The notes under the pieces are model-generated. The model did no database searches. It had not been told where the DNA came from and worked only from the letters and a program-made list of their open reading frames with translations. From Hyphomicrobiales bacterium (GTDB lineage Bacteria > Pseudomonadota > Alphaproteobacteria > Rhizobiales > Beijerinckiaceae), in NCBI GenBank assembly GCA_947455025.1, contig CANGLU010000008.1, forward strand, positions 1-64,000: a DNA stretch of 64,000 nucleotides. Reading direction: 5' to 3'. The translations under genes were made by a program, and so were the position numbers. Positions 50,737 to 59,986 of the stretch are shown here, in pieces. Each line of letters begins with the position of its first letter. Within the stretch, counting starts at the first letter, position 1.

Positions 50737-51807
50737 TCAGCGTTGCGCCAGTCGAGCAACGAGGTCGGCGGTTTCCTTTTGACCCAAGGCACCAAGGCGC
50801 ATAGCGACCGACCAGCGCTTGCCACCAGCGAGCTCAACCATATTGCCCTTTGCCTTCTCCGCCGTGAATCCTTCGGTCTCGGCGGTTGCCGGAAACGCCA
50901 TGCCGATCGCATCTTGATCGGGCGTGCGACAAATCCAGCGGATACATTTTGCGGCTTGTGATGGCTGATAGCGGATGTAGTCCGCCGTACCATCAGGACG
51001 CTTTTGCAGCGCATGGGCAAAGCCATCACGGTCGGCCTGCATATCGATGGTGAAGACGATCTCCGGATCAAAGCCCATACCAGGCTCTAAAATGTGATGC
51101 AGCTTCGGCGCTTTGGCGAGCTCGGCGATGAACTCTTTATAGCCGGGCTTCGGTGTAATATGGCCGGGTATCGCTTGGCGAACGCGCACCGCTTCTGGCG
51201 TATAGGGCGCCGAATAAACCATCTCGCCGTGATCGACGGGCCGGAAATTCGCATGCGCGAGATACATCAGATCCATCGGCGTCTGCTTCAGATTATCAAT
51301 ATCGAGCTCGATATCGAGAAGCGTTGAATTGGCGGCCATCGTAATGCTCGCCGTTGCGAGATAATGGACGGTGAAGGCAACGGCATATTGATAGGTGCCT
51401 ACAATTTTAAGGGTCTGAGCCGCCTCGTCCCATTCAAGCCATGCCTTTTGAAAAGGGGCGTTCGGCAACTCGCCGTGGAGCGGGTGACGATCACCAGGCC
51501 CCGGCGCGCCCATTCCGCTGATGCCGCAATGAATGAAGAAGGCGCCATAGGTTTCCAAATAGGTTTGCGTGGCGACCGGCTCATTGAACATCGACTTCAT
51601 CGTGAGGTCGCGACCATCGAACACCGCGCGCCAAATCTGCTGACCCTTGAACGGCAAAACATCGATGTGGCCGCGTTGATTCGCGATCCGAAGTCCCTCT
51701 ATCCCCGTCGAATACCGAAAAGTTGAGACCTTGAATTCGCCCATCGACCCTAGCGATGTTTCGTGATCGGCAAACATTGATCGTGTCAATTCAATCCGCA
51801 CCGGCAT
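50737..51807 (-). CDS. DUF4432 (aldose 1-epimerase-like) protein
   Basis: A 356-residue protein of the galactose-mutarotase-like fold. FFIHCGISGMGAPGPGDRHPLHGELPNAPF resembles the sugar-binding His region of DUF4432 proteins, and MDLMYLAHANFRP is the second conserved block. It probably binds or epimerises a sugar. AAGGA lies upstream of the ATG. It is 108 bp upstream of the flavoenzyme on the same strand, but a joint pathway is not obvious. Confidence 0.75.
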   Translation of the reverse strand: MPVRIELTRSMFADHETSLGSMGEFKVSTFRYSTGIEGLRIANQRGHIDVLPFKGQQIWRAVFDGRDLTMKSMFNEPVATQTYLETYGAFFIHCGISGMGAPGPGDRHPLHGELPNAPFQKAWLEWDEAAQTLKIVGTYQYAVAFTVHYLATASITMAANSTLLDIELDIDNLKQTPMDLMYLAHANFRPVDHGEMVYSAPYTPEAVRVRQAIPGHITPKPGYKEFIAELAKAPKLHHILEPGMGFDPEIVFTIDMQADRDGFAHALQKRPDGTADYIRYQPSQAAKCIRWICRTPDQDAIGMAFPATAETEGFTAEKAKGNMVELAGGKRWSVAMRLGALGQKETADLVARLAQR

Positions 51808-52108: not shown

Positions 52109-52564
52109 ATGCTTTTTGAGTACTGTGCTGAGTGCCGCAGATGTTGCAATGTCGAGGAGGGGCAGCCTGCCCTCGAGGTAACGTTGACGGACACCGAGCA
52201 AAAGAAATTTGGCAGCATCTGCATTGAAGACAATTGTACCCATCTCGGCAACGAAGGTTGCTCGCTGGGGAACGAGAAGCCATTTTCGTGCAGCCTCTAC
52301 CCGCTCTCGTTTAACCCGCATTCGCGTGAGTTCTTCTTCGACAATGAGTGCCCGCTGATGCCGACCTACATCACGCAGCTGGCCGATAAGGGCAGCGAGG
52401 CATCGGCTCATCTGGGCGCGATTACAGAAAAAATATTGAAGCTTGAGAAGACAAACGGTGATTTTTTAGTAGAAAATCATGCTGTGGATATTGACTACTT
52501 CGAATTGATCAAGCTTCCTCATGCAGCTTTGCCGACGCGTTCGGCTAAAAAGGCGAGGCAGTAA
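52109..52564 (+). CDS. YkgJ-like cysteine-cluster protein
   Basis: A 151-residue protein. The N-terminal CAECRRCC (C6, C9, C12, C13) is the zinc- or iron-binding cluster of the YkgJ/CxxCxxCC family. More cysteines follow in CIEDNCTHLGNEGCSL and PFSCSLYPLSF, eleven in total, enough for an Fe-S or zinc centre. Function is unknown for the family. The next gene starts 34 bp after its stop in the same direction, so they form an operon. Inference: it supplies a metal centre to the acyltransferase-like partner. Confidence 0.72.
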   Translation: MLFEYCAECRRCCNVEEGQPALEVTLTDTEQKKFGSICIEDNCTHLGNEGCSLGNEKPFSCSLYPLSFNPHSREFFFDNECPLMPTYITQLADKGSEASAHLGAITEKILKLEKTNGDFLVENHAVDIDYFELIKLPHAALPTRSAKKARQ

Positions 52565-52598
52565 CGTGCTTAAAAAAACGAATTCAACAGGGACCGCT

Positions 52599-53438
52599 AT
52601 GAGTATCAAGCGTGTTGGCTTCCAAAGCTGGACTGATGAAAACCTCTGCGTCGAGAGCAATCACAACGACATCATCTATTACACGACACGCTGGGACGCG
52701 CTCTGCCCCTATGTCGATGTCAGCGACGAGATGCTCAAAAACGTGCCGAAGCCGTTTATTGTTTACGCGCTCCCGCCTGAAGGCCCTTATGGCGTGCCGA
52801 TCGGCGACCAATATGGGCTGGTGGATACCCAGTCGGATGCGTTCTGGAATGACGAACGCCGCACGCGCAAATTTCGTGAATACGACAAGATGTGGCGGAA
52901 CTTCGTCTACTCCGAGGAAGTGATCCCCGGCACCGAGCTGACCTTCGACCGGATGGTCGAGATGGGCGGCCAGCATTTTGAGAACTGCTATATTGATGAC
53001 CGCGAGATCGAAGGCTTCGTCGATTACTGCCAGAAGCTGAAGGTCCTTGTGATCAAGGTGCACGATACGGATGGCACGCTTGTTTTAACCGATGTCTCGA
53101 TCTTGCTGCCTGAGTACAACCAGCTTTATGGCAGCTTCTGCCAATGGAACCGCGCCTATAAGAACAAGTCGCCCGGCCTCTATGCCTGCCTGCTTGCGAT
53201 CCGCTGGGCCAACAAGAACAATCTGCGCTATTACAATCTCGGCCCTGTAGGCGATTATGGCTACAAGGAATTGTTCGTCACCGATTACGAACCGATTTAT
53301 TCCCTAGCCCTTACCGATCTCGACCATCCATTGGCGCTCGACGACACATCGCCGCTCCACACCGATTTCGATGTCAAACATTGGAACCAAGTGTATCGGG
53401 ATGTCGAGCCGATCAAGAAATTCAATCGGGTCAGCTGA
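52599..53438 (+). CDS. Acyltransferase-like protein resembling Ate1/Bpt C-terminal domain
   Basis: About 279 residues. I do not recognise the N-terminal half. The second half shows VLTDVSILLPEYNQLYGSF, ACLLAIRWANKNNLRYYNLGP, then GDYGYKELF and a final YEPIYSLALTD. This order of strand, long helix, YYNLGP and YKxxF resembles the GNAT-like domain of arginyl/leucyl-tRNA-protein transferases. In those enzymes a cysteine cluster lies N-terminal; here a separate cysteine-cluster gene precedes it. ATG 52599 has AGGGA upstream. It ends at a shared terminator with the SET-domain gene. The similarity is by eye only; another GNAT-type role is possible. Confidence 0.5.
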   Translation: MSIKRVGFQSWTDENLCVESNHNDIIYYTTRWDALCPYVDVSDEMLKNVPKPFIVYALPPEGPYGVPIGDQYGLVDTQSDAFWNDERRTRKFREYDKMWRNFVYSEEVIPGTELTFDRMVEMGGQHFENCYIDDREIEGFVDYCQKLKVLVIKVHDTDGTLVLTDVSILLPEYNQLYGSFCQWNRAYKNKSPGLYACLLAIRWANKNNLRYYNLGPVGDYGYKELFVTDYEPIYSLALTDLDHPLALDDTSPLHTDFDVKHWNQVYRDVEPIKKFNRVS

Positions 53439-53443
53439 GGAAT

Positions 53444-53470
53444 AATTGGCGCTTTAAGGCGCCAATTTTT
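53444..53470. terminator. Bidirectional intrinsic terminator
   Basis: AATTGGCGC pairs perfectly with GCGCCAATT around TTTAAG, followed by TTTT. It separates the convergent acyltransferase-like and SET-domain genes. Confidence 0.85.
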
Positions 53471-53910
53471 TATTCTTTCTCCGAAAAGAAATGCTCTTCG
53501 CCGAAGCTGTGATCATAATCCATCACCAGCTCTTCCCCAGCTTTGATCTTGGTCAGCGTCTCGTAATGGCCCGCTTTCTTGATGCGGATATTCGGCGTCT
53601 TTGAATGATTGAGAAAGATGGAGAAATCCATCGTATTCAGTCCGACGACCGGAATGAGCACTTCCTTATCGTCGTAATAGCAGAACATCTTGATCTGTTT
53701 ACGGACGCCTTTGGGCAGGTGCTTGAGTTCCTCTTTTTTGAACGACAGCTCTTTTCTCGGCAGCGGGCTTCGCAACGGATCAATCCCTTTTGGGATATTG
53801 CGGATTGCGAATACGCCAACCCCGTGGGTAGGCGATGAGCCGAGGCGGCAATAGACTTCGTCGGCAAGGTGCTTCAACAGCTTCTTTTTTTGCTTCACGG
53901 CTTTGCTCAT
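53470..53910 (-). CDS. SET domain protein
   Basis: A 146-residue protein that is almost only a SET domain. THGVGVFAIRNIPKGI is the first cofactor strand, FLNHSKTPNI the NHS knot, and KAGEELVMDYDHSF the closing segment with the catalytic Tyr. SET proteins methylate lysines. Bacterial copies are uncommon and usually of unknown target. It has a Lys-rich start (SKAVKQKKKLLKHL) and AGGA before the ATG. It is convergent with the cysteine-cluster/acyltransferase pair. Confidence 0.82.
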   Translation of the reverse strand: MSKAVKQKKKLLKHLADEVYCRLGSSPTHGVGVFAIRNIPKGIDPLRSPLPRKELSFKKEELKHLPKGVRKQIKMFCYYDDKEVLIPVVGLNTMDFSIFLNHSKTPNIRIKKAGHYETLTKIKAGEELVMDYDHSFGEEHFFSEKE

Positions 53911-54178: not shown

Positions 54179-55699
54179 ATGCCCAATCTGACCAGGTGCC
54201 CAGTGACTGCAGACTATCAACCGTCAAAGCGCGGATTTGGTTCGCCCCGAATAGGCCGGGCAGCGGTTTTACTGGGGCTATTGCCTGCGCTTTCAGCCTG
54301 TATGCCGAGCCTCGATACGGCCCATATCGGCGTTCCGGTACCCGCAGCCTTTGAGCAAAGCGCGCCTTCAGCCCCAACGGTCAACGCGCGATGGCCTAAG
54401 CTTTTCCGCTCCGCCGAGCTCGACCGTTTGATCGGAAGCGCGGTTGAGGACAATCTGGATCTCGCAAGCGCTGTGGCACGGATCACAGAGGCCGACGCGC
54501 AGGCCGCCGCCGCCCGTTCGGCCCTCTTCCCGACCGTTGATGGCTCGGCAACCGCGCAGCGCTCCCAGACCCCCGGCACGCTTTCGAGCGATGCGGGTCC
54601 GTTTACGACATCCGTCTCCAACCAATTCGGGGCCGGGTTGACGGCGAGCTATACAATCGACACCTGGGGCCGTTACCGCTCCTTACAAGCCGCAGGGCTT
54701 GCCACCGCCGATGCGGCCCGGTTTGACCGCGATGCGCTCGCCATCAGCATCGCCGCTTCTACCGCGAATACCTATTTCGGGATGATGGCGGCCAAAGACC
54801 GGATTGCACTTCAGCAAGAAAACATTTCGCTGGCGAGCCATATCCTCGAGGCGATTAAAGCCCGCGTTTCGGTGGGGACCGCCTCGGCGCTCGATATTGC
54901 CGAGCAAGAAAGCATTGTCGCCAGCCAAAAGGCGGCTGTGCCAGCCTTGGAACAACAAGTCGCCCAAGGGCGCACCCAGCTCGCCATCTTGCTCGGTCGC
55001 CCCCCTGAAGGCTTCGCCATTAAGGGGGCGAGCCTGAAACCCTTGACGGTGCCGGATGTGGCCGCCGGAATGCCGTCCTCGCTCTTGCTGCGCCGCCCCG
55101 ATATTGCGCGGGCCGAAGCTGATTTGCGCACCGCAGAGGCGAATGTGGAGGCCGCACGAGCCGCCTATCTACCGAGTTTCGATCTGACATTGAAGGGTGG
55201 CAATGAAAGCCGCACGCTCGAAAATATGCTCCGCCCCGACGCCGCTTTTGCCTCGGCGCTTGGCAGCATGGCGGCTCCCATTTTTGACGGCGGCGCGCTC
55301 GACGCGAGTTTCAATCAGCAAAGCGGACGGCGAGCCGAATTGATTGCGGCCTATCGCAAAGCCATTATTTCGGCGTTCGGCGATGTCGAGAATGCATTGA
55401 TCGCGGTGAAGCAAAGCCGCCGGCAAGAAGAATTGCAAAGCGCTGTCGTTGAGGCGTCCAAGCGTGCCTACACGATCAGCGAAGAAAGGCTGCGCGCCGG
55501 CACCATCGACATCGTCACGCTTTTAACGGTGCAGCAAAATTTATTTCAGGCCGAGGAAGCCCTTATTCAATCCCGTCTCACCCGTTTGCAAGCCACAATC
55601 TCGATGGTTCAAGCGGTGGGTGGTGGTTTTGAAGTTGCAGCCGATGCGGCCATTCGACAAAGGGCGATTGCCCCAACACAAGCGGTAGCAACGCCATGA
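54179..55699 (+). CDS. Outer-membrane efflux lipoprotein (NodT/OprM family)
   Basis: A 506-residue TolC-like channel subunit. The lipobox LSAC at residues 38-41 predicts lipidation at Cys41, after an unusually long leader, so the true start may be later. Two OEP repeats follow, with long helices (ASAVARITEADAQAAAARSALFP; RADLRTAEANVEAARAAYLPSF is read as ARAEADLRTAEANVEAARAAY). It forms the exit duct for the pumps encoded downstream and ends in a 4-bp ATGA overlap with the adaptor gene. It may also serve the RND pump at 17090. Confidence 0.87.
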   Translation: MPNLTRCPVTADYQPSKRGFGSPRIGRAAVLLGLLPALSACMPSLDTAHIGVPVPAAFEQSAPSAPTVNARWPKLFRSAELDRLIGSAVEDNLDLASAVARITEADAQAAAARSALFPTVDGSATAQRSQTPGTLSSDAGPFTTSVSNQFGAGLTASYTIDTWGRYRSLQAAGLATADAARFDRDALAISIAASTANTYFGMMAAKDRIALQQENISLASHILEAIKARVSVGTASALDIAEQESIVASQKAAVPALEQQVAQGRTQLAILLGRPPEGFAIKGASLKPLTVPDVAAGMPSSLLLRRPDIARAEADLRTAEANVEAARAAYLPSFDLTLKGGNESRTLENMLRPDAAFASALGSMAAPIFDGGALDASFNQQSGRRAELIAAYRKAIISAFGDVENALIAVKQSRRQEELQSAVVEASKRAYTISEERLRAGTIDIVTLLTVQQNLFQAEEALIQSRLTRLQATISMVQAVGGGFEVAADAAIRQRAIAPTQAVATP

Positions 55700-56901
55700 C
55701 ATTTCGTTTGTCTTCCCTGATCAGCCTTATCGTTTTGATCGCCGTTATTGCCGGGATCGGTTGGTTTGTGATGATTCCGCCGACACAGCCACCTGCTACC
55801 TCAAGGCGAAGCGGGGCGGATGACGGGCCTGTTCCCGTGCTCGCCATCAAGGCCGAGCGACGCGATATGCCCATTGATATCGACAGCATTGGCACGGTTC
55901 AGGCGTTTAACACCGTTACCGTGCGCAGCGAAGTGGATGGCCGTTTGATCGAGTTGAGTTTTCGCGACGGGCAAGATGTGAAGGCCGGTGATATTTTGGC
56001 CAAGATTGATCCGACGATCTATCAAGCCCAATATGATCAAACGCTTGCCAAGAAAGCGCAAGACGAAGCCATTCTTGCGAATGCCCAGCGCGATTTGGAA
56101 CGCTATTTGAATTTGGCCAAAACCGAATATGCACCGCAACAACAGGCCGACACGCAACGCTCAACCGTTGCGCAAATCAGCGCGCAGATTGCTGCTGATC
56201 AAGCAGCCCTTGATAATGCCAAGGCCTATCTCGACCGCACCACGATCCGCGCGCCGATTGATGGGCGCACAGGTATTCGTCTGGTTGATAAAGGCAATCT
56301 GGTGCGTGCCTCCGATCAAACAGGGCTTGTGGCGATTGCGCAGGTTACTCCAATATCGGTGATTATTACTTTGCCGCAACAGCATTTGCCCGCGATCAAC
56401 CGCGCCTTGGCGCGCGGCAAAGTATCGGTTGATGCACGCGATGGCGAATTGGGCACGGTGATTGATCATGGCACCGTGGAAGTTGTCGACAATCTGGTCG
56501 ATCAAACCACCGGCACGATAAAGCTAAAAGCCGCTTTTCCCAATGCAAGCTTAGCGCTTTGGCCAGGGCAGTTTGTCAATATCACCTTGCATGTCGGTGT
56601 GTTGAAAGATGCGATGATGGTGCCCACCACCGCCGTGCAGCGCGGACCATCCGGTGCGTTTGTGTATGTGGTTGATGAACAATCGAAGGTCTCGGTTCGT
56701 CCTGTGACCACGGCACGGCAAACCGAAACCGACACGGCGATTGCAAGCGGGCTTGAAGCAGGTGAGACGGTTGTCACCAGCGGGTTTAACCGCCTCTCCG
56801 ATGGCGTAACCGTGCGCGTGGATGCCGCGACGATTGTTCCTGCCGCACCTGCCAAGCAACAGGGCAAGGGCAAGAAGCCCGCAACCGGAACGACGCCATG
56901 A
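55696..56901 (+). CDS. RND periplasmic adaptor (MdtA-like)
   Basis: A 401-residue membrane-fusion protein. It has an N-terminal hydrophobic anchor (LISLIVLIAVIAGIGWFV), split lipoyl motifs (VRSEVDGRLIELSFRDGQDVKAGDILAKID and TIRAPIDGRTGIRLVDKGNLV), a coiled-coil hairpin between them, and beta-barrel and membrane-proximal domains. A basic Lys/Gly tail closes it. Overlap with the channel gene and a 10-bp gap to the first pump gene show one operon. Confidence 0.88.
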   Translation: MTFRLSSLISLIVLIAVIAGIGWFVMIPPTQPPATSRRSGADDGPVPVLAIKAERRDMPIDIDSIGTVQAFNTVTVRSEVDGRLIELSFRDGQDVKAGDILAKIDPTIYQAQYDQTLAKKAQDEAILANAQRDLERYLNLAKTEYAPQQQADTQRSTVAQISAQIAADQAALDNAKAYLDRTTIRAPIDGRTGIRLVDKGNLVRASDQTGLVAIAQVTPISVIITLPQQHLPAINRALARGKVSVDARDGELGTVIDHGTVEVVDNLVDQTTGTIKLKAAFPNASLALWPGQFVNITLHVGVLKDAMMVPTTAVQRGPSGAFVYVVDEQSKVSVRPVTTARQTETDTAIASGLEAGETVVTSGFNRLSDGVTVRVDAATIVPAAPAKQQGKGKKPATGTTP

Positions 56902-56911
56902 CGGGTGAGCG

Positions 56912-59900
56912 ATGAGCGTCTCCTCGCCCTTTATTCAACGACCCGTCGCTACATCCTTATTAGCGATGGCTTTGGCGCTGTGCGGATGGCTTGGTTATCG
57001 TGGACTACCGATAGCAGCTTTACCGCAAATCGAATTTCCGACGATTGAAATCATCACGCAATATCCGGGTGCCAATCCCGATACGATGGCGGCGTTGATC
57101 ACCGCGCCTTTAGAACGACAATTCGGGCAAACGCCATCGCTGGCGGGCATGTCCTCGCAAAGCTCGTTCGGCATGAGCCGGATTACGCTGCAATTTGATT
57201 TAGGACGCGATATCGATGCGGCCGCCCAAGACGTGCAATCGGCGATCAATGCGGCAGCGGCGAGCCTACCCAAAAGCCTGCCCTATCCGCCTGTCTATTC
57301 GAAAATCAATCCGGCGGATCAGCCGATTATTACCTTGGCTTTATCCTCATCGACCGTTTCTTTGCGCGGGCTATCGGATTTTGCCGATACGATTTTGGCG
57401 CCGAAGCTGAGCGAAATATCGGGTGTTGGCCGCGTGGCGGTCGAAGGTGGCATTAGGCCCGCCGTGCGCATCAAACTCGATCTCGATCGGTTGGCGTCCT
57501 ATAAAATCGGCGTTGAAGATGTGCGCACTGCGATTATCGCGTCGAATGTCGCGGCTCCAAAAGGTTCGCTGGATGGTGCGGAGCAGAGCTATACGATTGC
57601 GGCGAATGATCAAATCAGCACGGCGGATGCCTATCAATCCATCGTCATAGCCTCGCGCAACAGCACCAATGTCGTGCTGCGCGATGTTGCAACCGTGACA
57701 GACGGATTGGAAAATGACCGCGTTGCTGCGACGCATCAATCGGAAGCAGCCGTTATCCTCGACATTAGACGGCAACCAGGTGCCAATGTGGTGGAAACGG
57801 CGGATCTGGTTAAAGCTGCTCTGCCGCGCTTGAAGCGCACGCTGCCGATGGGCGTTTCTTTCGATATTGTACAAGACCGCACGGAGACGATCCGCGCCTC
57901 GATCCGCGATGTTGCGGTGACGCTGTTGGTGAGCATTATCCTTGTCGTCGGCGTGGTGCTGCTTTTTCTGCGTTCCCTTCGCGCTACTTTGATTGCGGGG
58001 ATTACGCTTCCTCTGTCGATCATTGCGAGCTTCGGCGTGATGTGGTTTGCGGGTTTTAGTTTGGATAATTTATCGCTGATGGCGCTCACCATTGGCACGG
58101 GCTTTATCGTCGACGATGCGATTGTGATGATCGAGAACATTGCGCGCCATATTGAAGACGGAGATCGTCCGCTGGCAGCCGCGCTAAAAGGCGCGGGCGA
58201 GATTGGGTTTACGGTGATCTCGCTCACGGTCTCGCTGATTGCGGTGTTCATTCCGCTTTTGTTTATGACGGGCCTTGTCGGACGCATGTTCCGCGAATTT
58301 GCGTTGACGCTTTCGATTGCTGTTATTGTGTCGGCGATCATCTCCCTGACGCTCACACCGATGATGTGCGCCTATCTGCTGCGCCACGTGCCCGCGCAAT
58401 CAGAGGGCCGCTGGCAGCAGGCGCTTGAATGGCCAGTCAGCGCCATGGCGCGGCTTTATGAGAACACACTCAGTTGGGCGCTGAACCGCCCTACTTTGAT
58501 GCTCTCGCTGACCGCCGCCACGATGGCGCTGACTTCGGCTTTATATATCGGGATGCCAAAGGGCTTTTTGCCCGATCAAGATACGGGGCTGATCAGCATT
58601 GTGTTGGAAGCCTCGCCCGACGCCTCCTTTACCGAGATGAAACGCTTGGAAAATGAAGTGAGTCATGCGCTCAAGGCAGATCCTGCGGTGACCCATGTCG
58701 TCGGCGTGTTGGGCGTCGGCGCGCAAAATGCCACGCTGAATGCGGCGCATATGATGGTGGCCCTGACCCCAAGCACGACGCGGCGCGAAAGCGCGGCGAT
58801 GATCGCGCAACGACTGACGACGATTGAGCAAAGCGTTAAAGGCGTGCGGCTTTATGTGGAGCCCGTGCAAGATGTTGAGATTGCAACGCGGACAAGTAAA
58901 GCGCGCTATCAATATACGCTGACAGGGGCTGATGCCGATCTCGTCTCGCTCTGGGGCGATCGTTTGCTCGCCCAATTGGCGAAAGATCCGCGCATCACCA
59001 AGGTTGCGACTGAAACCCCAAGCGGCGGCTTGCGGGCTTATGTGAATATTGACCGCGAAAAGGCCGGGCGGCTTGGCGTATCGATGCAGCTTGTCAATGA
59101 CACGCTAAACGACTCCTTCGGTCAAAGACAAATATCAACCATCTATGCACAATCGAACCAATATCGCGTGGTGATGGAAGCTGCAGCGCGTGACCAAACC
59201 GATCCGGCGATTTTGAGCAAGCTCTATGTTTCAACAAGCGCTGGCGCCCAAGTGCCGCTCTCGACATTTGCGACACTGACACGCGATACCGCACCACTCG
59301 TTCTCGCGCATGAAGAGCAATTCCCAGCCTATACGCTTAGCTTTGATGTGGCGCGTAACACCTCGCTTGATCAAGCCGTGACGGCCATGGCTGAGGCGCA
59401 ATCAGCCATTGATTTGCCGGCGCTTCTGGTGGGAAGTTTCACCGCCGATGCCGCCGAATTTCAACGCGCACTGGCCAGCGAAGTGTGGCTTATCTTAGCC
59501 GCCGTCATCGTGATCTATCTGGTGCTCGGTATGCTTTATGAGAGCTATATCCACCCGATCACGATCTTATCGACACTGCCTTCCGCGGGCGTTGGTGCCT
59601 TATTGGCCCTGTCGTTAACGGGAAATGATTTGTCGGTCATCGCGCTCATTGGCATCGTCTTGCTGATGGGAATTGTGAAGAAAAATGCGATCATGATGAT
59701 CGATTTTGCGATTACGGCAGAGCGTGAAGAAGGCCGCACCACTTATGACGCGATTGTCGAAGCCTGCCGTTTACGCTTTCGCCCGATTATGATGACCACG
59801 CTCGCGGCCTTGTTCGGCGCTGTGCCCCTGGCCTTCGCGCATGGTGCGGGATCCGAGCTTCGCATCCCGCTGGGTGTGACGATTATTGGCGGGCTGATGC

Positions 59901-59986
59901 TCAGCCAAATCCTGACGCTTTATACGACCCCCGTGATTTTTCTCGTGCTTGAAAAATGGCGTGGCCCCCAAAAGAGCGCTTCATGA
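56912..59986 (+). CDS. RND efflux permease 1 (MdtB-like)
   Basis: A 1024-residue AcrB-fold pump. It opens with SSPFIQRPVATSLLAMALAL; TM4 reads FIVDDAIVMIENIARH with the paired Asp of the proton relay; SFGQRQISTIYAQSNQYRVV and TILSTLPSAGVGALLAL are typical of the MdtB/MdtC branch. Its stop overlaps the next pump gene (ATGA). In MdtABC the two pumps make a mixed trimer; the same is inferred here. Substrates may include bile-salt-like detergents and novobiocin-type drugs. Confidence 0.9.
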   Translation: MSVSSPFIQRPVATSLLAMALALCGWLGYRGLPIAALPQIEFPTIEIITQYPGANPDTMAALITAPLERQFGQTPSLAGMSSQSSFGMSRITLQFDLGRDIDAAAQDVQSAINAAAASLPKSLPYPPVYSKINPADQPIITLALSSSTVSLRGLSDFADTILAPKLSEISGVGRVAVEGGIRPAVRIKLDLDRLASYKIGVEDVRTAIIASNVAAPKGSLDGAEQSYTIAANDQISTADAYQSIVIASRNSTNVVLRDVATVTDGLENDRVAATHQSEAAVILDIRRQPGANVVETADLVKAALPRLKRTLPMGVSFDIVQDRTETIRASIRDVAVTLLVSIILVVGVVLLFLRSLRATLIAGITLPLSIIASFGVMWFAGFSLDNLSLMALTIGTGFIVDDAIVMIENIARHIEDGDRPLAAALKGAGEIGFTVISLTVSLIAVFIPLLFMTGLVGRMFREFALTLSIAVIVSAIISLTLTPMMCAYLLRHVPAQSEGRWQQALEWPVSAMARLYENTLSWALNRPTLMLSLTAATMALTSALYIGMPKGFLPDQDTGLISIVLEASPDASFTEMKRLENEVSHALKADPAVTHVVGVLGVGAQNATLNAAHMMVALTPSTTRRESAAMIAQRLTTIEQSVKGVRLYVEPVQDVEIATRTSKARYQYTLTGADADLVSLWGDRLLAQLAKDPRITKVATETPSGGLRAYVNIDREKAGRLGVSMQLVNDTLNDSFGQRQISTIYAQSNQYRVVMEAAARDQTDPAILSKLYVSTSAGAQVPLSTFATLTRDTAPLVLAHEEQFPAYTLSFDVARNTSLDQAVTAMAEAQSAIDLPALLVGSFTADAAEFQRALASEVWLILAAVIVIYLVLGMLYESYIHPITILSTLPSAGVGALLALSLTGNDLSVIALIGIVLLMGIVKKNAIMMIDFAITAEREEGRTTYDAIVEACRLRFRPIMMTTLAALFGAVPLAFAHGAGSELRIPLGVTIIGGLMLSQILTLYTTPVIFLVLEKWRGPQKSAS

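Follow-up and report, generated by a model that had tools for sequence, protein, structure and literature searches.

Gene content of the locus

The window, a 64,000-nucleotide stretch of DNA from a Hyphomicrobiales bacterium, carries three intact, adjacent genes for a small cysteine-cluster protein (P0001), a protein with a predicted tandem-GNAT fold (P0002) and a SET-domain methyltransferase (P0003; Table 1). The genome measures 2.5 Mb, and its nearest named relatives are Beijerinckiaceae/Hyphomicrobiales bins. A gap of 34 bases separates the P0001 and P0002 genes, and P0002 has an alternative, longer frame of 305 aa starting at 52521. The P0003 gene is convergent with the P0002 gene, as an earlier note on this DNA had described. 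Where the note placed a shared terminator between the two, a hairpin has its T run on the + strand only, and a scan for hairpin sites of this type gave a count not above that from shuffled sequence. A terminator is plausible here but not above shuffled expectation, and it would probably serve the + strand genes. Upstream of the trio lies a DUF4432 gene (50737-51807), which is present in most same-genus genomes tested, and just downstream an outer-membrane efflux, HlyD-type, AcrB-type pump operon (54179-59986).

Table 1 Features of the three-gene locus, with positions in the window.
Feature	Position	Strand	Remarks
P0001 cysteine-cluster protein gene	52109..52564	+	151 aa; diverged CxxCxxCC/YkgJ-type (PF03692)
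P0001 CxxCxxCC motif, C6-C13	52124..52147	+	From sequence; invariant 47/47
P0002 tandem-GNAT gene, probably aminoacyl-tRNA-dependent transferase	52599..53438	+	279 aa from ATG; fold model and ATE_C matches
P0002 Bpt-like motif SPGxYACL...YxNLG, S191-G215	53169..53243	+	Profile alignment, invariance
P0002 Lys223 codon	53265..53267	+	Invariant 42/42; placed by YK..F motif
Terminator-like hairpin between convergent gene ends	53444..53467	+	Perfect 10-bp stem; T run on + strand only
P0003 SET-domain methyltransferase gene	53470..53910	-	146 aa; Pfam SET; no post-SET cysteine site
P0003 SET motif N101-H102-S103 (SAM binding)	53602..53610	-	Invariant 41/41
P0003 SET motif D131-Y132 (catalytic tyrosine position)	53515..53520	-	D 39/41, Y 40/41

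The three genes form a conserved, patchily distributed unit

To follow the trio across genomes, we scanned 85,000 species genomes with two peptide patterns, a search that may miss more distant relatives, and found 76 P0002 loci. In the tree, these are mostly from Burkholderiales, with several from Beijerinckiaceae and one from a Chthoniobacteraceae bin (Verrucomicrobiota); two form a separate deep branch, one of them titled Steroidobacteraceae. Carriers of the trio thus occur in Beijerinckiaceae, Burkholderiales, Gammaproteobacteria and Verrucomicrobiota, that is, in two phyla. The verrucomicrobial occurrence is not a stray contig, because 4 of 40 genomes from that bin's family are positive and all four carry the complete trio. 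Closer to the window, P0002 is present in 10 of the 12 genomes of its genus, its own included, but the 48 other genomes sampled from its family and order all lack it. Among 385 genomes of the class it was found in no others, and 398 genomes of the phylum added solely one weak, stop-ridden stretch.

The arrangement is non-random, recurring in almost every P0002-bearing genome. Wherever the flank is visible, the cysteine gene directly precedes P0002 (74/74 loci; gap of -4 to 113 bases, with a 4-base stop/start overlap in eight loci), and the SET gene follows it in 73 of 74; contig ends explain the missing cysteine gene in two loci and the missing SET gene in two. The sole exception is L087, which lacks the SET gene although its full flank is present, and whose genome encodes a distant SET protein only. 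Second, distant SET types (E ~1e-8 to the trio SET profile) occur elsewhere in the L041, L087, L073 and L089 genomes, at loci L101-L104. Four loci (L082, L083, L086 and L089) have the SET gene on the same strand as the other two genes. The P0002 match in L161 extends across a single in-frame TAG; its open frame closes with ...EEWNKLYR, and the C-terminus may be truncated.

These linkage loci fall into 30 P0002 clusters at 85% identity, and each flanking family within 3 kb occurs in five of them at most. The two families that reach five clusters are RND pump genes; they come from two unrelated groups and flank the trio on opposite sides. Pairwise divergence of the three trio proteins is correlated (r 0.69-0.80), against a best value of 0.24 among 2000 permutations. 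The earlier note proposed a module, and neither of its refuting outcomes came about: the three genes adjoin one another almost wherever P0002 occurs, and the predicted fold of P0002 (below) is of the expected kind. We are highly confident that the three genes work together. A transporter as a fourth member was considered and rejected: RND genes are found close to the trio both in the window's genus and in one group of Comamonadaceae, but they are probably independent neighbours, because they occupy opposite sides of the trio and the HlyD-type proteins of the two groups share only ~22-26% identity.

The position of the trio varies within the window's genus. G009 agrees with the window: there, too, the trio is flanked by the DUF4432 gene and the efflux operon. 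In several same-genus genomes, by comparison, the DUF4432 gene sits on a different contig from the trio (G001, G003 and G005), and in the corresponding loci (L078, L024 and L088) a tRNA-Arg gene lies upstream of it. In the alphaproteobacterial loci L024, L078, L088 and L079, a tRNA-Arg(ACG) gene is ~0.3-0.6 kb from the cassette and is perhaps an integration site. Directly upstream of the L089 cassette are a phage-type integrase gene and a tRNA-Thr gene (L089:4041-5158), an arrangement that resembles a genomic island; L089 comes from a 2.1-Mb bin titled Klebsiella pneumoniae, and this title is very probably wrong. The distribution fits horizontal spread, because the trio occurs at differing sites within one genus and integrase and tRNA genes adjoin the L089 cassette; the alternative is deep vertical descent with loss. 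Record titles (lake, pond, reservoir; Limnohabitans, Polynucleobacter) suggest that the carriers are freshwater bacteria.

Spread of this kind would also be expected of a small system for anti-phage defence or another conflict. Such a role would agree with the patchy distribution and with the integrase and tRNA-Thr genes in L089, but it is very unlikely: PADLOC gives a chance-level match only, the trio was not found in the phages, plasmids and viral contigs searched, and its high conservation is unlike that of fast-evolving defence genes. PHROGs yielded nothing for P0001 or P0002; P0003 matched a single family there, weakly, and that family has no name.

P0002 is a predicted tandem-GNAT transferase with a Bpt-like motif

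The earlier note took P0002 for an Ate1/Bpt-like transferase, and structure prediction places it in the superfamily that contains Ate1/Bpt. The AlphaFold2 prediction, based on 42 members of the family (mean pLDDT 90.9, pTM 0.88), has a two-lobed tandem-GNAT architecture in which approximately residues 1-258 align to FemX and MprF. The top Foldseek matches are MprF/L-PGS and A-PGS synthases, FemX, Sba18/Sbb17 and Ate1 (best E 7e-8, to MprF), and the first 35 matches all belong to aminoacyl-tRNA-dependent families. Structural alignment (VIA) gave Z values of 13.3 for L-PGS, 12.1 for FemX, 11.8 for Sbb17 and 9.4 for Ate1. These relatives share 9-15% identity with P0002, i.e. the relationship is at superfamily level. 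From the model, we are highly confident that P0002 folds as a whole tandem-GNAT member of the aminoacyl-tRNA-dependent transferase superfamily. The fold alone is insufficient proof of tRNA use, because ordinary tandem and single GNATs reach Z 9-11 against P0002, with acetyl-CoA-using tandem GNATs at ~10.

At the sequence level, the window's P0002 resembles Ate1/Bpt weakly, a likeness that its fold supports. The best Pfam family for P0002 is ATE_C, at 22.1 bits with a cut-off of 25; three same-genus copies score 28.0-29.1 bits, above this cut-off, and 39 of the 42 family members match at E<=0.1. No family member (0/42) matches ATE_N. In a profile alignment, SPGLYACLLAIRWANKNNLRYYNLG of P0002 aligns with a stretch of the genome's own Bpt at identical spacing: SPGxYACL...YxNLG in P0002 corresponds to SLGTYMIL...YLYLG in Bpt, with equal S-to-LG spacing. 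Reading the alignment further reveals a YK..F element after this motif, whose Lys223 is invariant (42/42) and, placed by motif, probably corresponds to FemX Lys305 and DhpH-C Lys329, both of which have active-site roles (PMC12945691). Four further basic residues, R87, R88, R90 and K91, are invariant within one helix that could contact tRNA. The profile-profile comparison with Bpt was weak (probability 14%), and that with MprF was uninformative. Matches of the P0002 sequence to PDB entries (rat RAP and others) were dismissed as chance-like, as they were gone when the family profile was used.

Two other roles for P0002 have to be weighed against this evidence. As an ordinary acyl-CoA-dependent tandem GNAT, it would make the cassette an acetylation/methylation module without tRNA. 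Weak matches to Acetyltransf_6 (18.4 bits for P0002, cut-off 22; 38/42 members) and the acetyl-CoA GNATs at Z ~10 speak for this possibility, but the acetyl-CoA motif (Q/R)xxGx(G/A) is absent and replaced by (R/K)SPGxYA, the Bpt form, and no acyl-CoA enzyme is among those first 35 Foldseek matches. We consider it highly improbable. Slightly less remote, though still improbable, is aminoacylation of a lipid or cell-wall precursor in the manner of MprF/FemX, with the partner proteins adjusting the head group. The best fold matches are indeed MprF synthase domains and FemX, and the PF09924 lipid lysyl-transferase is absent from the window's genome. Against it, neither P0002 nor its family members match PF09924 or a FemAB Pfam family, the three trio sequences on reading contain no hydrophobic membrane segment, and the P0002 motif is closer to Bpt. 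We know of no lipid precedent for a SET methyltransferase. On balance, we judge it likely that P0002 uses aminoacyl-tRNA.

P0001 is a cysteine-cluster protein and not one half of a split Ate1

The cysteine cluster reported in the earlier note is real: nine cysteines (C6, C9, C12, C13, C38, C43, C51, C61 and C81) are invariant in 47/47 aligned sequences. P0001 scores 18.5 bits against PF03692, below the cut-off of 23, and 43 of the 47 family members give a weak match at E<=0.1. Its AF2 model has a pLDDT of 80, and the fold search returned no PDB match and nothing usable. Going by its motif, P0001 is a diverged CxxCxxCC protein, with either zinc or an Fe-S cluster as its probable ligand. A separate CxxCxxCC protein (L014) is encoded elsewhere in the window's genome. 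FliB, the one studied protein whose motif has been likened to this type, carries a [4Fe-4S] cluster and uses SAM to methylate lysines of flagellin (PMC8598068).

In Ate1/Bpt, a metal site for zinc or iron, of the form CX2C...CC, lies in the N-terminal region (PMC10115844), and the earlier note had read P0001 and P0002 as the cysteine cluster and GNAT halves of such an enzyme, split over two genes. We reject this reading. P0002 is two-lobed on its own and its family lacks ATE_N, P0001 is of PF03692 type and gave no Ate1 fold match, and the genome encodes a separate, whole canonical Bpt (L012) with both ATE_N and ATE_C.

P0003 is a compact SET domain

By its sequence, P0003 is a typical compact catalytic SET domain, which scores 32 bits against Pfam SET (PF00856; cut-off 22.4) and keeps the NHS and ELxxDY motifs. 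Its family profile matches KMT2C over the whole length (E 4.9e-8) and the SET enzyme BurB in part (E 0.0017). BurB is a methionine S-methyltransferase that acts on free methionine, so a SET fold is no proof of a protein substrate (PMC12542666).

A proposed modification module

We tentatively propose, as a reading that falls a little short of even chances, that the trio is a horizontally exchanged module in which P0002 aminoacylates and P0003 methylates a common acceptor, with P0001 as the metal-cluster partner and a protein as the acceptor. P0002 would take an amino acid from aminoacyl-tRNA and attach it to the acceptor, at an amino (or hydroxyl) group positioned between the two GNAT lobes, with Lys223 as the conserved active-site lysine. 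Using SAM, P0003 would methylate either that acceptor or the amino acid that has just been attached. P0001, a metal-cluster protein with probably [4Fe-4S] and made together with P0002, may deliver or condition the acceptor, or add a second SAM- or redox-dependent modification, like FliB. By analogy, we slightly favour a protein over a small molecule as the acceptor: for all three trio members, the closest characterised relatives in sequence or motif (Bpt/Ate1, FliB and SET lysine methyltransferases) act on proteins. No conserved acceptor protein or small ORF was found beside the cassette. Candidate RiPP-type precursor peptides were discarded: the adjoining ORF families proved to be fragments of the cassette genes, their antisense strands, or translated tRNA genes. 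Among the flanks, no conserved neighbour is fit to be a dedicated aminoacyl-tRNA synthetase.

A minimal metabolite pathway ranks close behind the protein-acceptor reading, and we regard it as possible. P0002 would couple an amino acid carried by tRNA to a small amine or to an amino acid, in the manner of Orf11/Sba18, VlmA and DhpH-C; the SET protein would methylate the small molecule, as BurB does; and P0001 would contribute a redox or metal step. A peptide-like metabolite or a metal ligand would result inside the cell. Sbb17/Sba18 rank high in the fold matches of P0002, the BurB precedent applies, and a set of three enzymes that travels with no target of its own suits a self-contained route that works in unrelated hosts. 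The flanks, on the other hand, hold no transporter, synthetase, regulator or resistance gene conserved with the trio, and P0003 matches BurB over part of its length and less strongly than it matches protein methyltransferases.

Returning to the protein-acceptor reading, its fullest form would be a dedicated protein-modification system that combines tRNA-borne aminoacylation, lysine methylation and an iron-sulfur partner, is shared horizontally among unrelated, probably freshwater hosts and acts on one conserved target. That all of these parts hold at once is rather unlikely. tRNA-dependent transferases that work outside the ribosome are few, and their chemistries are distinct: N-end tagging, lipid and cell-wall aminoacylation, and antibiotics. 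With its fixed place next to a SET methyltransferase and a probable metal-cluster protein in bacteria of two phyla, the new P0002 family would point to a novel modification or metabolite with a selectable role, and the trio is small enough for one plasmid.

Comparison with known systems

The earlier note could match the trio to no described system, and our literature searches (mostly open-access papers) likewise yielded no description of the P0002 family or of the fixed trio. A computational survey of tRNA-dependent peptide ligases groups Ate1, MprF and Fem enzymes and leaves the SET domain unmentioned (PMC2922099).

P0002 resembles Bpt/Ate1 in its GNAT core, its ATE_C-like sequence, the (R/K)SxGx(Y/F)...LG spacing and a YK near the end of the core, but it has no ATE_N and no CX2C...CC metal site and is four residues shorter before the lysine. 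With the MprF/L-PGS synthase domain and FemX it shares the two-lobed tandem GNAT over residues 1-258 (Z 12-13), whereas identity is ~10%, and P0002 has no membrane part and no membership in their Pfam families. Sba18/Sbb17, streptothricin-type aminoacyl-tRNA-dependent peptide synthases, have the same fold (Z 11.4-11.8, 14% identity) and are similar in size; they were solved with streptothrisamine, according to their PDB titles, whereas the trio stands without an antibiotic gene cluster. The N-terminal CX4CX3CC cluster of FliB was likened to PF03692 by its authors, and FliB has eight conserved cysteines; P0001, in contrast, is only 151 aa long, has a CX2CX2CC arrangement and shows no flagellar gene linkage; the likeness is one of motif. 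P0003 shares the SET motifs GxG, NHS and ELxxDY with KMT2C, PBCV-1 vSET and BurB, but it has no post-SET zinc site, and BurB aligns in part only. In summary, the superfamilies to which these proteins belong are known, whereas the fixed trio in which the P0002 family occurs probably forms an undescribed modification system.
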